In this document: positions 2,295 to 12,473 of the stretch, piece by piece
Layout: the number at the start of each line of letters is the position of its first letter
How positions within the stretch are numbered: the stretch's first letter is position 1
Assembly (NCBI RefSeq): GCF_022827545.1
Contig: NZ_CP094669.1
Location: 641,001 to 705,000, forward strand
Source: Hymenobacter tibetensis
Lineage (GTDB): Bacteria > Bacteroidota > Bacteroidia > Cytophagales > Hymenobacteraceae
Reading direction: 5' to 3'
DNA length: 64,000 nt
Translations under genes and position numbers: made by a program
Notes under the pieces: generated by a model
What the model was told of the DNA's origin: nothing
The model's database searches: none
The model's input: only the letters and a program-made list of their open reading frames with translations

Positions 2295-3575
2295 ATGTCC
2301 TCTGCCTCTTCTCCGCGCCAAGATTCCTACGCTGCTTTGCGCATTCCTGACTTTCGCCGGCTGATTTCGGCGAGAGTTTTTCTGACTATTGCTTTGCGGG
2401 TGCAGGGGTTGGTAATCAGCTGGCAGATATTCAAGCTCACAAATGATCCGCTGGCCCTAGGTCTTATTGGGCTGGCTGAGGCTATTCCTAGTATTGGTGT
2501 CTCGTTGTACGCGGGGCACGTAGCGGATTCGGTGCGGCGCAAGAACATCATCGTGGCAGGTGTGGCCGCACTCCTGCTATGCGCCGCCGCTCTGTGGCTG
2601 TTTGCGTCGCCTATTGGAGTTGGATTGCTTGCAAAAGATTCTTTGTACACGCTGCCACTGTATGGGGTCATTTTTGTGAGCGGCATTGCGCGAGGATTTA
2701 TGGGGCCTGCGCTTTTTTCGTTTATGCCGCAGCTGCTGCCCAGCCGGGAGCAACTAGGCAATGCGGTGACGTGGAACAGCACTACGTATCAGGCAGCTTC
2801 GGTATTAGGGCCGGCTATTGGTGGGTACCTTATTGCGCATTTAGGCGTCGCCAACTCCTACACTGTATCTACGGGGCTATTGGCGCTGGCTTTGCTACAG
2901 TTTGTACAGATAGCGTCGCGTCCATTGCCGCCTTTGGAGGGGGAGCGGCTAGGCTTGAAGGATAGTGTGCTCAGTGGGCTCCACTTTATTTTCAACAATC
3001 AGTTGGTTCTGGCGGCTTTGTCGCTTGATCTGTTTGCGGTGCTGTTTGGAGGCGCAGTGGCCCTGTTGCCAGTTTTTGCGGTGGATATCCTTGAAGTTGG
3101 AGCTGCCGGACTCGGGCACCTAGAGTCGGCGCCGGCAGTGGGCTCTGTGTTAATGGCCGTGTTCCTAACCTACTTTCCGTTGCGCCGCCATGCTGGCCGT
3201 AAGCTACTGTGGGCTGTGGCTGGCTTTGGCTTGGTTACTATTTTGTTTGCCTGGTCGAGTAACTTCTGGCTGTCACTGCTGCTGTTGTTTATGACTGGAG
3301 TCTTCGACTCGGTATCGGTCATTGTGCGTTCTACGCTGCTGCACACGTTCACGCCCGAATACATGAAAGGCCGCGTGTCTGCAGTCAACAACATTTTCAT
3401 TGGCTCTAGCAACGAAATAGGAGCATTCGAGTCGGGAGCGGCAGCACGGATGCTGGGGGTGGTGCCGTCCGTGGTATTTGGCGGAGCCATGACTATGTTG
3501 GTAGTAGGTATTACGGCGTGGCGCGCCGACAAGCTACGGCAACTCGACCTGACTCCCGAAACGATAAAGGCGTAA
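2295..3575 (+). CDS. MFS transporter (EntS/MFS_3-like exporter)
   Basis: Inner-membrane major facilitator of about 426 residues with roughly 12 hydrophobic segments. The start MSSASSPRQD is chosen because the eight residues before it are not family-like. The first half has the typical loop 2-3 motif (GHVADSVRRKNIIV). A central segment SFMPQLLPSREQLGNAVTWN resembles the conserved loop of the MFS_3/EntS group, which exports siderophores and drugs. A later segment (YMKGRVSAVNNIFIGSSNEI) is the matching conserved patch in the second half. The substrate cannot be read from sequence. No siderophore biosynthesis gene is nearby, although an iron-type receptor operon lies 15 kb away. The gene appears to stand alone. 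Confidence 0.9.
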   Translation: MSSASSPRQDSYAALRIPDFRRLISARVFLTIALRVQGLVISWQIFKLTNDPLALGLIGLAEAIPSIGVSLYAGHVADSVRRKNIIVAGVAALLLCAAALWLFASPIGVGLLAKDSLYTLPLYGVIFVSGIARGFMGPALFSFMPQLLPSREQLGNAVTWNSTTYQAASVLGPAIGGYLIAHLGVANSYTVSTGLLALALLQFVQIASRPLPPLEGERLGLKDSVLSGLHFIFNNQLVLAALSLDLFAVLFGGAVALLPVFAVDILEVGAAGLGHLESAPAVGSVLMAVFLTYFPLRRHAGRKLLWAVAGFGLVTILFAWSSNFWLSLLLLFMTGVFDSVSVIVRSTLLHTFTPEYMKGRVSAVNNIFIGSSNEIGAFESGAAARMLGVVPSVVFGGAMTMLVVGITAWRADKLRQLDLTPETIKA

Positions 3576-8170: not shown

Positions 8171-8399
8171 GAGCCTATACCAGCGCAACAGCGCCAACAA
8201 GAAGCGTAACTACATTTCTTCTACTGTGCGCGTAGGGGCGCTGCGCCTCTACTGCGTCTTACAAGCGGAACGTTCCTTCTGCTGCTGGCAGTACCCCCTG
8301 CCTTAGTTCTCGCGAGCTGTAGCTAGCTCATACTCCTGATTTTCTGACTTTTAGCCGACAGCTGCCTAGGCTGTGCCATGTCCTTTTACCTCAACTTAT

Positions 8400-10763
8400 A
8401 TGCGTTTCATTTTCGTATTTTTTCTGGCGCTGCTCCTCACCACTGCAGCAAATGCGCAAGGCCTGAATCAGACCATCCGGGGCCGTATTCTCGACCGAGA
8501 GTCGCAGCAGCCGTTGGTGGGCGCTACGGTGGTAGTGCTTGACCTAGCTACACCGCTGGCTGCTACCGCCGATGCCACGGGTACTTTCAAGCTAGAGAAG
8601 GTGCCAGTAGGCCGCCACACGCTCAAGGTCAGCTTCATCGGCTACGAAGAGCAAACCATTCCGGAACTACTGCTGGGTTCGGGTAAGGAGTTGGTGCTCA
8701 ACCTTGGCCTGACGGAGTCCTTCACCAGCCTCACGGAAGTAACTGTTACAGGCGAGCGGGAAAAAGGCACTGCTCGCAACGAAATGGCTACTGTCTCGGC
8801 CCGCTCCATTTCGGTGGAAGAAAGCAAGCGCTATGCGGCCAGCCTTTCTGATCCGGCGCGTACGGCCCAAACGCTGGCGGGCGTGTCTGGCACATCGAGC
8901 GGCGACTTAAACAATGAAATTGTGGTGCGCGGCAACTCGCCGCGGGGGCTGCTCTGGCGCATAGAAGGCGTGGAAGCTCCCAACCCCAACCACTTCTCGG
9001 ATGCCGGGGCCAGCGGGGGCGCCGTGAGCGTGCTCAGCACCAATGTGCTCAGCAACTCCGATTTCTTTACGGCTGCTTTTCCGGCCGAGTACGGCAATGC
9101 TCTCTCAGGAGTATTTGATGTGAAGCTGCGGACTGGCAACAACGAAAAGCGTGAATATGCCTTTCAGGCTGGGGTATTGGGTGTTGAAGCTGCCGCGGAA
9201 GGTCCGTTGAGTGCGCGTTCGAAAGGCTCGTACCTGCTAAACTATCGGTATTCCTCGCTGGCTTTGCTCAACAACCTAGGGCTCGACGTGACGGGTAATG
9301 GCGGCGTGCCCAAGTACCAAGACCTCGCCTTCAAACTCAACCTGCCGCTTGGGCGCCACAACCTTGTGCTGTGGGGCATTGGGGGCCTGAGCAGTAGCAG
9401 CTCCCGTGCCACCCGCGACTCTTCGCAGTGGGAGCGGTATTATGAGCGGTTCGATGACCGTTCCTCGTCGGATGTGGCCGTAGGCGGGCTCACGTACACC
9501 CATTCTCTCAACGACCACGCCTACATCGAAACGGCACTTACGGCCTCGGGCGACCGACATGCCTATCAGGCCTACGAGTTGTCGGAGAGCTATAATCGGG
9601 TGCTCGATACAGAGCAGCGCTACGAAAACACTGCCCTGCGTGCATCGGTGCTTTACAACCATAAAATCAACGCCCACCACACAGTACGGACGGGTGCTGT
9701 TCTTAGCCGGTTGGGCTTCACGGCCGACAATGGCTTCCGCGACGATGACTATGGCGGCCAGTACGTTCAGTTCTTGCAGGGTACGGGGCATGCCACCACC
9801 ACGCAGCTATATAGCCAGTGGAAATACCGCGCCACCGAACAGCTCACCTTTACCAGCGGCGTACATTTTCTGCATTTCAGTTTGAATGGCAACGCGGCAG
9901 TGGAGCCGCGTGCGGGTGCGAGGTGGGCTTTCGCGCCGAGGCAGTCGTTGTCAGCGGGCGTGGGGCTGCACAGTCGCTTGGAAGCGCCTTTCTCTTATTA
10001 CACCCGTGTACCAAACACTACCGGCGGCTACACCGAACCCAACCGCAACCTGGGGCTGGCGCGCGCCGTGCACTATGTGCTCAGCTACGACAACCAACTG
10101 CGCGAGGACCTACGTCTGCGGGTGGAGCCCTACTATCAATACCTGTACAACGTGGCCATTAGCCCGGACCGCGCAAGCACCTTTGCGGCTCTTAACTATG
10201 GCGGTGGGGCACCCTCGGAAGCACTGGTGGCTCGTGGCTTGGGTCAGAACTACGGTTTGGATGTAACGCTCGAAAAGTTCTTTACCAGCCAGAATTACTT
10301 CCAGCTCACCGGCTCGCTCTACGACTCTCGCTACCGTGCCATTGATGGCAAATGGCGCAACACCCGCTACAATGGCAACTTCGTGGCTAATGCTTTGGGT
10401 GGGCGCGAATTCAAGGTGGGCCGCGCCAACAACAACTTGGTGGGGCTGAACCTGCGCTTACTTTGGGCTGGTGGCAACCGCTATACTCCCATCGATTTGG
10501 CTGCCTCTCGTCAAGCCGGCTATGGTGTCACCCTTGAAGATGAAGCGTGGTCCGAACAGGGGCCCTCGTACTTCCGCTTAGATGTGCGCGCTAGCTACCG
10601 CAAGAACCGGCCGCACGCCTCGCACATTATCTCCCTGGACCTACAAAACGCTACCAACAACCAGAACATCTTCGGCCGCTTCTACGACCGGTATTCCCAA
10701 CAACTCGAAACATCGTACCAAACCTCTCTGGTGCCATTCCTGAACTACCGAGTGGAGTTCTGA
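8400..10763 (+). CDS. TonB-dependent receptor with carboxypeptidase-regulatory-like domain
   Basis: Outer-membrane receptor of 787 residues. The start MRFIFVFFLALLL gives a clean signal peptide ending NAQ; an upstream in-frame methionine at 8373 only adds nine residues. The N-terminal CarboxypepD_reg-like beta-sandwich (IRGRILDRESQQPLVGATVV) is followed by a plug domain (LAGVSGTSSGDLNNEIVVRG and RIEGVEAPNPNHF). A long beta-barrel follows and ends in an aromatic terminal strand (YRVEF). No STN domain precedes the plug. It is the last gene of the sigma/FecR/STN locus and probably both the target and the partner of that system. The substrate is unknown. A large palindrome lies just downstream, between this gene and the convergent hydrolase. 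Confidence 0.92.
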   Translation: MRFIFVFFLALLLTTAANAQGLNQTIRGRILDRESQQPLVGATVVVLDLATPLAATADATGTFKLEKVPVGRHTLKVSFIGYEEQTIPELLLGSGKELVLNLGLTESFTSLTEVTVTGEREKGTARNEMATVSARSISVEESKRYAASLSDPARTAQTLAGVSGTSSGDLNNEIVVRGNSPRGLLWRIEGVEAPNPNHFSDAGASGGAVSVLSTNVLSNSDFFTAAFPAEYGNALSGVFDVKLRTGNNEKREYAFQAGVLGVEAAAEGPLSARSKGSYLLNYRYSSLALLNNLGLDVTGNGGVPKYQDLAFKLNLPLGRHNLVLWGIGGLSSSSSRATRDSSQWERYYERFDDRSSSDVAVGGLTYTHSLNDHAYIETALTASGDRHAYQAYELSESYNRVLDTEQRYENTALRASVLYNHKINAHHTVRTGAVLSRLGFTADNGFRDDDYGGQYVQFLQGTGHATTTQLYSQWKYRATEQLTFTSGVHFLHFSLNGNAAVEPRAGARWAFAPRQSLSAGVGLHSRLEAPFSYYTRVPNTTGGYTEPNRNLGLARAVHYVLSYDNQLREDLRLRVEPYYQYLYNVAISPDRASTFAALNYGGGAPSEALVARGLGQNYGLDVTLEKFFTSQNYFQLTGSLYDSRYRAIDGKWRNTRYNGNFVANALGGREFKVGRANNNLVGLNLRLLWAGGNRYTPIDLAASRQAGYGVTLEDEAWSEQGPSYFRLDVRASYRKNRPHASHIISLDLQNATNNQNIFGRFYDRYSQQLETSYQTSLVPFLNYRVEF

Positions 10764-10821
10764 GCCCGCACGCATCCTTTATCATTCAAGCTGACCCCAA
10801 GAACTATAGCTACGATATAGG

Positions 10822-10906
10822 GTAACCACCAAGGCTCTTGGTTATCAGCGCAGTTATCCACATGATGTGGATAACTGCGCTGATAACCAAGAGCCTTGGT
10901 GGTTAC
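10822..10906. repeat. 42-bp perfect palindrome with two inverted DnaA-box-like 9-mers
   Basis: Left arm 10822-10863 and right arm 10865-10906 are perfectly complementary around a single base at 10864. Near the centre TTATCCACA (10854-10862) and its reverse complement TGTGGATAA (10866-10874) are exact matches to the strong E. coli DnaA box, TTATNCACA. Neither flank has a T-run, so it is not a typical intrinsic terminator. It lies between two convergent genes. Confidence 0.9.
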
Positions 10907-10991
10907 TAAAAGGAAAATTGCTTGTAACGATTTGTCTTGCTTGGTGTTCAGCGCTGGTTGTCAGGTAGTTTGACTACTGAATAGCCGGGCC

Positions 10992-12473
10992 TTAACGGCT
11001 TGCTGCAGGGCTAGAGCCTTGGGTACTGCGCTCTTGCTTGCTTGCCTTTGTGTGCGCAGCCCGCTTCACTGTTGTTGGTTCAATGCTAGTTTGAGTGGTT
11101 TGGGCAGCTATCCAAGAGCGCATCACGTCTAGCGCCTTAGGCGAAAAGGTAGGTTGCTGCTCTCCATTAACTATGGCCCATTCTTCTGAAAGAGGCTGCA
11201 GCCAGTGGTTGACTCCTGCCAGCTTCTGGGTCTTTACGCTCTTGCTGTTACGCAAGCCACGCCGCAGCATAGACAGGTTGCCCGAGGCCTCCACTTGCAA
11301 ATCAAGCGCACCGTTGAGTGCTAATACTGGGCATTTCACTTTGTGCAATTCACGGGCTGGCTCGAAGTCAATGAAATAACGGGACCAAGGCGACGTGAGT
11401 TGAATAGCGCGGGCCCGGGCCATATGGGGGTCGAGGTCGGTATTGCTGTTGCGCAGTGTGCCAGCCACCTTGCCGCGAGCTTGCGCGTCGTTGGGCGTTT
11501 GCCGGATTATGTCAATCATCTCCACATGCAAAGCCAACGCAGCTTTTACTTGTGCTGGGGAGGCCCCAATCAGGCGCATGATTTCCAACTGTTGCTGCAC
11601 CAAAACATGACGCCCAGGCAACCCGTAGCCCGCCAGTGAAACTACAAAGGCTGGCGTTGCAGCATTTGCGTCGGCAGCAGCCAGCAGCGCTACATTGGCT
11701 CCTTCTCCATGACCGATAAAGCCTATCTCTTGCGGATTGATCAAGTCACGGGTACGTAAGAAGCTCATGGCAGCTTGCGCATCACTTACCATATCAATGG
11801 TAGTGGTGTTGAAATAGCTGCCCTGTGACTTGCCCACTCCCCGGTCATCGAAGCGCAGTACGGCCGTTCCGCGGCGGGTCAAGTAATCAGCAAGAATGCT
11901 GAACATGCGGTATTCCTGTTCGCCAGCGTCACGGTCTTGGGGGCCGGAATCAGAAAGCAGGACTACGGCCGGGAAAGGACCCGGTCCGGCTGGTACTGTC
12001 AGGGTACCTGAGAGGCGCAGCTTGGCGCTGGGGTTGGTGAAGCTTACCTCGTCTTCGCGGTAGGGTGGAGTCAGGCGAACTTTGCCTGATGCTGTGGCAG
12101 CCGAGCTGGCACGCTGCATCTCTAGCGTCCCCGAAAGACCGGGCTGTTTCCAAAAACCCGAAAGTACGGCGCCATCTTTTAGCACCTTGCCCTTAAAGCT
12201 ACTGCCCGCCTGCTCGATTTGCAGGGTGAGGTCACTACCTTTCAACACTACTTCAACGGGCATCCGGTAGATGCGCTGCTGAGGTACGTCGAGAGCTGCA
12301 TAGTAAGTGCCGTTTGTGAGGGGCACGATGGTAACGATAAGCTCCAATGTGCCGCCAGGTACTTTTAGAGGCCCCCGCCATTGCCCGTTCAGAGTAGGTG
12401 GGGTAGCGGCTACTGAGGAGAAGGCTGCCAGTATAAGCCAGAGGAATATAAGAATGTGTAAACTTTTCTTCAT
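10992..12473 (-). CDS. Secreted alpha/beta-hydrolase-fold protein with nucleophile Ser replaced by Gly
   Basis: A 493-residue exported protein with a signal peptide (MKKSLHILIFLWLILAAFSS, cleaved near VAA). An N-terminal beta-rich domain of about 130 residues is followed by an alpha/beta hydrolase domain. Oxyanion and strand motifs are VVLLSDSGPQDRDAG and VLRFDDRGVGKS. The nucleophile elbow reads IGHGEGAN with Gly256 (codon GGA at 11708-11706), where relatives have IGHSEG. The later acid (GALDLQV) and base (GVNHWLQP) regions look intact. As read, the catalytic serine is missing, so the protein may be inactive, or use another residue, or the base may be an error. Lys/Ser/Thr-rich residues form the C-terminus. 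The gene stands alone. TAATTTTG (12540 to 12533, minus strand) is a possible -7 promoter box. Confidence 0.88.
   Translation of the reverse strand: MKKSLHILIFLWLILAAFSSVAATPPTLNGQWRGPLKVPGGTLELIVTIVPLTNGTYYAALDVPQQRIYRMPVEVVLKGSDLTLQIEQAGSSFKGKVLKDGAVLSGFWKQPGLSGTLEMQRASSAATASGKVRLTPPYREDEVSFTNPSAKLRLSGTLTVPAGPGPFPAVVLLSDSGPQDRDAGEQEYRMFSILADYLTRRGTAVLRFDDRGVGKSQGSYFNTTTIDMVSDAQAAMSFLRTRDLINPQEIGFIGHGEGANVALLAAADANAATPAFVVSLAGYGLPGRHVLVQQQLEIMRLIGASPAQVKAALALHVEMIDIIRQTPNDAQARGKVAGTLRNSNTDLDPHMARARAIQLTSPWSRYFIDFEPARELHKVKCPVLALNGALDLQVEASGNLSMLRRGLRNSKSVKTQKLAGVNHWLQPLSEEWAIVNGEQQPTFSPKALDVMRSWIAAQTTQTSIEPTTVKRAAHTKASKQERSTQGSSPAASR

Follow-up and report, generated by a model that had tools for sequence, protein, structure and literature searches.

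A palindrome with facing DnaA boxes between convergent genes in Hymenobacter, a candidate DnaA-binding locus and two-way transcript end

The window (the whole 64-kb stretch of Hymenobacter DNA analysed here) contains a perfect palindrome that lies between two convergent genes and carries two exact, facing DnaA boxes at its tip. The explanation that we favour, with somewhat more confidence than doubt, is that the element belongs to a conserved candidate DnaA-binding locus whose inverted form doubles as a two-way 3′ end. Specifically, some members of the genus would keep, between a gene for an MFS transporter and a gene for a hydrolase, a chromosomal locus to which DnaA binds. In the inverted form, the strong boxes face each other with 3 or 4 bp between them (N3 or N4), and DnaA would bind as facing units. 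The inverted element would replace an intrinsic terminator and end transcripts arriving from either direction. It could do so through its hairpin, through DnaA molecules in both orientations that obstruct RNA polymerase as a roadblock, or through both. We infer DnaA occupancy, transcript ending and effects on DnaA activity or replication timing; the explanation is based on sequence, synteny, box conservation, paired changes in the palindrome arms and the finding of no other strong terminator. Points against it are the 91 of 112 surveyed loci without boxes, a terminator test that was loosened after a stricter first pass had found fewer terminators, gap lengths that differ among the groups, the non-independence of the genomes, outer boxes that match at 6/9 positions in the window, and direct-type boxes that adjoin the start of an NlpE-like gene in two genomes.

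The palindrome and its DnaA boxes

The palindrome sits between the 3′ ends of a (+) strand ORF that ends at 10763 and a (−) strand ORF whose stop ends at 10992 (Table 1), a position that would fit a DnaA roadblock terminator. A repeat search bore out the preliminary description of 42-bp perfect arms around a single central base, and the two inverted exact TTATCCACA boxes 3 bp apart at the centre were likewise found; they are the sole exact copies in the window. Because a weak box-like 9-mer is located 3 bp outside each exact box, the order of boxes in the window is -> N3 -> N3 <- N3 <-. In all six genomes that carry the inverted form, the tetranucleotide TTAT occurs where the outer weak box lies, on one side or on both.

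The arrangement can be set beside the double DnaA box of E. coli, where DnaA is described in an excerpt of PMC11317965 as favouring pairs of boxes 2–3 bp apart. Same-orientation boxes 2–3 bp apart are found, as exact pairs, in 13 Hymenobacter genomes of the direct type described below. The window differs in that one box of each unit is exact and its same-orientation partner matches at 6/9 positions, and in that two such units face each other.

Folding of the palindrome gives a z of about −18 on either strand. A DNA search located it at one place only in its own genome (G000, where the window spans C1:641001-705000), a second match being the opposite-strand reading of the first, which rules out a repeat family. 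A chance palindrome is ruled out by the 42-nt arms, the folding score and recurrence in two other species. A comparison with known RNAs returned just three matches to miRNA hairpins, all under the curators' scores.

Table 1. Features of the palindrome locus in window coordinates.
Feature	Position	Strand	Details	Source
Perfect palindrome	10822..10906	.	Arms 10822–10863 and 10865–10906, 42/42 (100% complementary); 1-nt centre at 10864	Repeat search
Exact DnaA box TTATCCACA	10854..10862	+		Motif search
Exact DnaA box TTATCCACA, inverted	10866..10874	-	3 bp from first box	Motif search
Outer weak box-like 9-mer TTATCAGCG	10842..10850	+	6/9 match; same orientation as, and 3 bp from, exact box	Sequence reading
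Mirror copy of outer weak box TTATCAGCG	10878..10886	-		Sequence reading
ORF converging on palindrome	8373..10763	+	N-terminal carboxypeptidase-regulatory-like domain; probably outer-membrane-receptor-like	ORF list and family check
Alpha/beta hydrolase ORF converging from opposite side	10992..12473	-		ORF list and family check
MFS transporter match	2316..3560	+	About 7.3 kb from boxes	

Perfect hairpins elsewhere in the genome

The preliminary description judged the palindrome too long to have arisen by chance. The folding score and the recurrence agree with this, but the length is less special than it appeared, since perfect hairpins are frequent in this genome. A census took in the window and 40 stretches of 20 kb, together 864,000 bases, including 3,290 that were covered twice. 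It yielded 73 perfect hairpins whose arms reach 14 bp or more, with one hairpin from an overlap entering this count twice; after overlap removal, 42 have arms of 18 bp or longer. The window palindrome is the longest of the census. Nevertheless, with 42 such hairpins in about 860 kb, palindrome length alone is weak evidence, and the boxes, rather than the length, are the signal. In the 40 stretches (L036–L075), convergent gene junctions hold numerous perfect hairpins of great length, with arms reaching 38 bp.

Two-way terminators formed by perfect hairpins in this genome resemble the window palindrome in their location between convergent genes and in their near-perfect pairing. They differ from it at the tip, which is GC-rich and accompanied by a T-run in those terminators and carries DnaA boxes in the palindrome. 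The likeness bears on a simpler reading, in which the element is an ordinary bidirectional hairpin terminator and the match of its centre to the DnaA box is fortuitous; the preliminary description had raised a similar one, with an unusual terminator. Consistent with this reading, 32 of the 42 longer hairpins (arms of 18 bp or more) are at convergent junctions (with ORFs called mechanically), and ten of the 42, the window palindrome included, lack a T-run of at least 3 in the 3′ arm. However, other species that lack this hairpin have exact boxes at the syntenic position, and of the 20 exact, tightly spaced box pairs in 120 genomes of the genus, 19 are at the MFS/hydrolase locus, which makes a fortuitous match very unlikely. 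The chance part of the simpler reading is accordingly not supported, and its terminator part survives in altered form, as a likely 3′-end role together with DnaA binding.

Conservation of the boxes in Hymenobacter

The 3′ flank of the MFS gene was surveyed in 112 genomes; an MFS match is present in 115, of which G036, G123 and G128 were left out. The flank covered was just 1.5 kb in 19 genomes and about 1.9 kb in G071. Genomes were counted as carriers if the locus held at least two boxes, at least one of them exact and the others within one mismatch. By this definition there are 20 carriers among the 112, six of the inverted and 14 of the direct type. No boxes were found at the locus in 91 genomes, including the two with the best hydrolase matches (G130 and G140), and G061, which has an N16 pair with one weak box, stands outside the 20 carriers. 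Conservation across the genus is ruled out by the 91 genomes, and the candidate DnaA site is lineage-restricted within Hymenobacter.

The strong boxes of the inverted type are separated by N3 in G000 and G009 and by N4 in G002, G023, G111 and G119, and in inverted-type genomes one or both of the strong boxes are flanked on the outside, at 3 bp, by a weaker box, which is the 'double box' spacing. All 14 direct-type genomes have their boxes at N3, and ten of them have a third box (at most one mismatch) in the opposite orientation at N8. In 11 of the 20 carriers, no more than 130 bp separate the boxes from the MFS gene 3′ end; the distance is 926–947 bp in eight, all of which are of the direct type, and about 7.3 kb in G000, because other genes intervene there. 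Longer stretches were used for 20 relatives, and in 13 of them at least two boxes lie in the interval from the MFS gene to the hydrolase gene. All six exact inverted N3–N5 pairs in 120 genomes of the genus, and 13 of the 14 exact direct N2–N3 pairs, are at this locus. In a tree of 30 of the 120 hydrolase proteins, which includes 18 of the 20 carriers, the direct type and the inverted type each cluster, and the inverted genomes occupy a single region of the tree, interspersed with box-less genomes. This tree implies several gains or losses of boxes.

The hairpin has a narrower range than the boxes. When 59 genomes were searched at the DNA level, the palindrome core turned up in G000, G009 and G023 only, and the long hairpin was likewise found in these three only; the arms are about 12 bp in G002, G111 and G119. 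In G009 and G023, the arms are about 24 bp, the boxes are exact and each arm has two compensated changes. Two other species therefore share the inner 24 bp of each arm of the window's palindrome, apart from changes that are paired. Boxes that are kept while the arms drift had been named beforehand as support for DnaA binding, and this is the pattern seen: exact boxes with compensated arms in G009 and G023, and a direct layout not based on this palindrome in 14 genomes. Because some related species keep the boxes at the same place without the palindrome, the box sites are probably real. DnaA very probably binds the boxes of the palindrome. Of the DnaA reading offered in the preliminary description, therefore, the persistence of the boxes beyond the arms and their syntenic recurrence in direct layout are observed, and the binding is predicted from sequence.

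A further claim, that the site titrates DnaA, fared less well. Strong exact boxes with no promoter nearby, as in the window and the nearest carriers, would suit a site that merely lowers the amount of free DnaA. Nonetheless, just two of the 26 exact boxes of the genome are located here, leaving a titrant few binding places, and exact TTATCCACA boxes are not commoner genome-wide than a reversed control word (26 versus 35). In addition, many relatives manage without boxes at the locus. Titration as the sole function is probably not the explanation, and we regard it as improbable.

Transcript ends and terminators

No intrinsic terminator (a GC-rich hairpin followed by a T-run) was detected in the window's gap by three tests. 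One of these, a simple scan of 10500–11300, gave no T-run terminator, in agreement with the earlier remark that the flanks have no T-run. A first test for hairpins with T-runs was applied to 17 genomes with longer stretches, and recovered terminators in three of five direct-type, one of six box-less and none of six inverted-type gaps. Because this pass missed hairpins with larger loops, the test was widened by loosening the limits on loop, wobble pairs and gap, and was applied to 21 such genomes. Separate T-run hairpins, all with stems of at least 11, were then found in all eight direct-type and six of seven box-less loci. Among the six inverted-type genomes, three gave no hit in the widened test. 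In G009 and G023 it picked up the box hairpin itself, and in G002 a stem of 8 bp located at the MFS stop; none of the six shows a separate strong intrinsic terminator. The widened test also gives hits in 30 of 200 shuffled windows and 37 of 200 random genome windows, and in five of 200 shuffled windows when stems of at least 11 are required. Since gap lengths differ among the groups and the genomes are related, the contrast is support and not proof. Still, the lack of another strong terminator in the inverted-type genomes makes a 3′-end role besides DnaA binding likely.

How DnaA itself might contribute is suggested by the asnC gene of E. coli, at whose transcript end DnaA bound to a DnaA box reportedly acts as a roadblock, as later papers describe with reference to work of 1988 and 1989. 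A 1989 title speaks of an active orientation, and for this reason an inverted pair could block transcription in both directions. Both systems have DnaA boxes at gene 3′ ends, whereas the Hymenobacter element is two-way, palindromic and kept across species. A description of DnaA as a roadblock to RNA polymerase also appears in an excerpt of PMC11317965.

Boxes near genes might alternatively form a DnaA-controlled promoter element for a neighbouring gene, and two observations point in that direction. In G121 and G078, the two distant-box genomes looked at, the boxes are located just upstream of an NlpE-like ORF and not between 3′ ends, and another Hymenobacter box pair adjoins the gene for the small chain of ribonucleotide reductase. 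The gaps of the window and of the inverted-type genomes, however, face two 3′ ends, and no sigma-70-like site was found at 10500–11300, where the consensus used may not fit this phylum. We consider a promoter role distinctly improbable.

Host DnaA, origin and other box pairs

The host DnaA is identical to that of E. coli at eight of ten positions that we take to be the recognition residues. The TTATCCACA 9-mer recurs in the probable oriC at C1:5711630-5712150, which is beside an ORF taken for mnmG by eye. GC skew, computed at 41 places, changes sign broadly near 2.8–2.9 Mb, with a few exceptions, and not at 0.65 Mb, which rules out a terminus or second origin at the palindrome.

Other inverted TTATCCACA pairs were observed as well. 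Among 75 listed pairs with 0–20 bp between the boxes (45 genomes), at least 40 are at 7 bp, at least 33 at 17 bp and at least two at 4 bp, so that two spacings one helical turn apart dominate. In G000, a pair with 17 bp between the boxes is located at C1:5713357-5713391 (L054), about 1.3 kb from the probable oriC, and is possibly a second part of the origin. Pairs with this spacing were found in the loci of 16 relatives (among L005–L034), with a PHO4-family phosphate transporter gene beside all 16 fetched. A pair with 7 bp between the boxes adjoins the ribonucleotide reductase small-chain gene at C1:5614495-5614519 of G000 (L052 9495) and in eight relatives; an excerpt of PMC11317965 places E. 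coli DnaA at nrdA too. Another 7-bp pair lies inside a YjeF_N/Carb_kinase ORF in L040 (9849, G000, with one box mismatched), L012, L021, L023 and L027, where L040 was assigned by a family check and the other four by similar starts. This pair may reflect coding constraint. G000 also has direct pairs with 3 bp between the boxes and one mismatched box each, at L054 17005-17025 and, inside an ORF, at L051 13363-13383.

Comparison with E. coli regulatory loci

The best-known examples of DnaA control at a distance from oriC come from E. coli. The cores of DARS1 and DARS2, measured on MG1655, both have the order -> N5 <- N3 <-. They share with the Hymenobacter element an intergenic position and facing boxes with a further box 3 bp outside, where the third box matches at 7/9 positions in G002, G111 and G119 (order -> N4 <- N3 <-) and at 6/9 in the window. 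A DARS-like site would bring facing DnaA molecules into head-to-head contact, release ADP and recharge the protein for the next initiation, making the 3′-end role secondary. This would accord with an excerpt of PMC8682772, in which DARS boxes I and II are opposed and act through head-to-head ADP-DnaA. It would also accord with a genome search that found no second PF00308 protein, and hence no Hda candidate in this genome. On the other hand, the facing boxes are spaced by 3–4 bp in Hymenobacter and by 5 bp in both E. coli cores, none of the six inverted-type genomes has the order -> N5 <- N3 <-, and three Hymenobacter genomes have a symmetric palindrome. Furthermore, the third box of the 14 direct-type loci is on the other side, at N8, and points away (at most one mismatch in ten of the 14). 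Distance from oriC is not diagnostic and is ruled out as special evidence, being 10–12% of the contig in seven carriers versus 6–14% in 11 box-less genomes. The likeness is real, but because the spacing differs we do not assign the element as DARS, and we rate a primarily DARS-like function as unlikely.

The datA locus of E. coli is similar in being a non-coding DnaA-box locus distant from oriC. Excerpts describe it as five boxes plus an IHF site (PMC4585315), with one box overlapping a terminator (PMC10950094). The window has two strong and two weak boxes instead of five, and no datA-like cluster of five was found; besides the two exact boxes, there is none within one mismatch between 4082 and 12888.

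In the open-licence literature, which leaves most subscription papers outside, we found no paper that joins Hymenobacter with 'DnaA box' and none that joins 'DnaA-reactivating sequence' with 'Bacteroid-'; the combination of 'DnaA box' and 'perfect palindrome' returned only a baculovirus paper. The locus would connect binding of the initiator to the ending of transcripts in a way that is open to test, and the occurrence of direct and inverted forms in sister species provides a natural experiment on box orientation.

Occurrence of the core outside the locus and genus

Exact inverted pairs are rare. Pairs with N3–N5 spacing were found in eight of 204 genomes of the family, two of which belong to other genera, and pairs with N2–N6 spacing in six of 396 genomes of the class, G000 included. 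GTDB species genomes were scanned for exact matches to TTATCCACAT-N0-3-ATGTGGATAA, which gave 104 stretches, of which 80 were listed. Among the matches listed, four of 84 sites have arms of at least 18 bp, namely one in Hymenobacter telluris, two in Pedobacter and one in Dictyobacter. Again among these matches, all four long-arm sites are between convergent ORFs, versus eight of the 80 with shorter arms. The two Pedobacter sites adjoin the same dipeptidase-like ORF (named by eye), and their outer arms differ in sequence and are still perfect. The gaps that hold the long palindromes in Pedobacter and Dictyobacter yielded no other terminator.

Such palindrome sites may tie replication control to transcript ending. 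As a tentative and on balance doubtful generalization, they could be DnaA-gated two-way terminators, in which palindromes with facing boxes stop transcripts in both directions and hold DnaA head to head. The state of the initiator would set the level of read-through, crossing transcription would reset DnaA, and the sites would have separate origins in Hymenobacter, Pedobacter and Dictyobacter.

Dense arrays of DnaA boxes that include inverted pairs were also observed at L148 3466-4262 (Ktedonobacter) and L114 440-960 (a Cytophagales MAG), and one of the L148 sites has up to 30 boxes within one mismatch around it.
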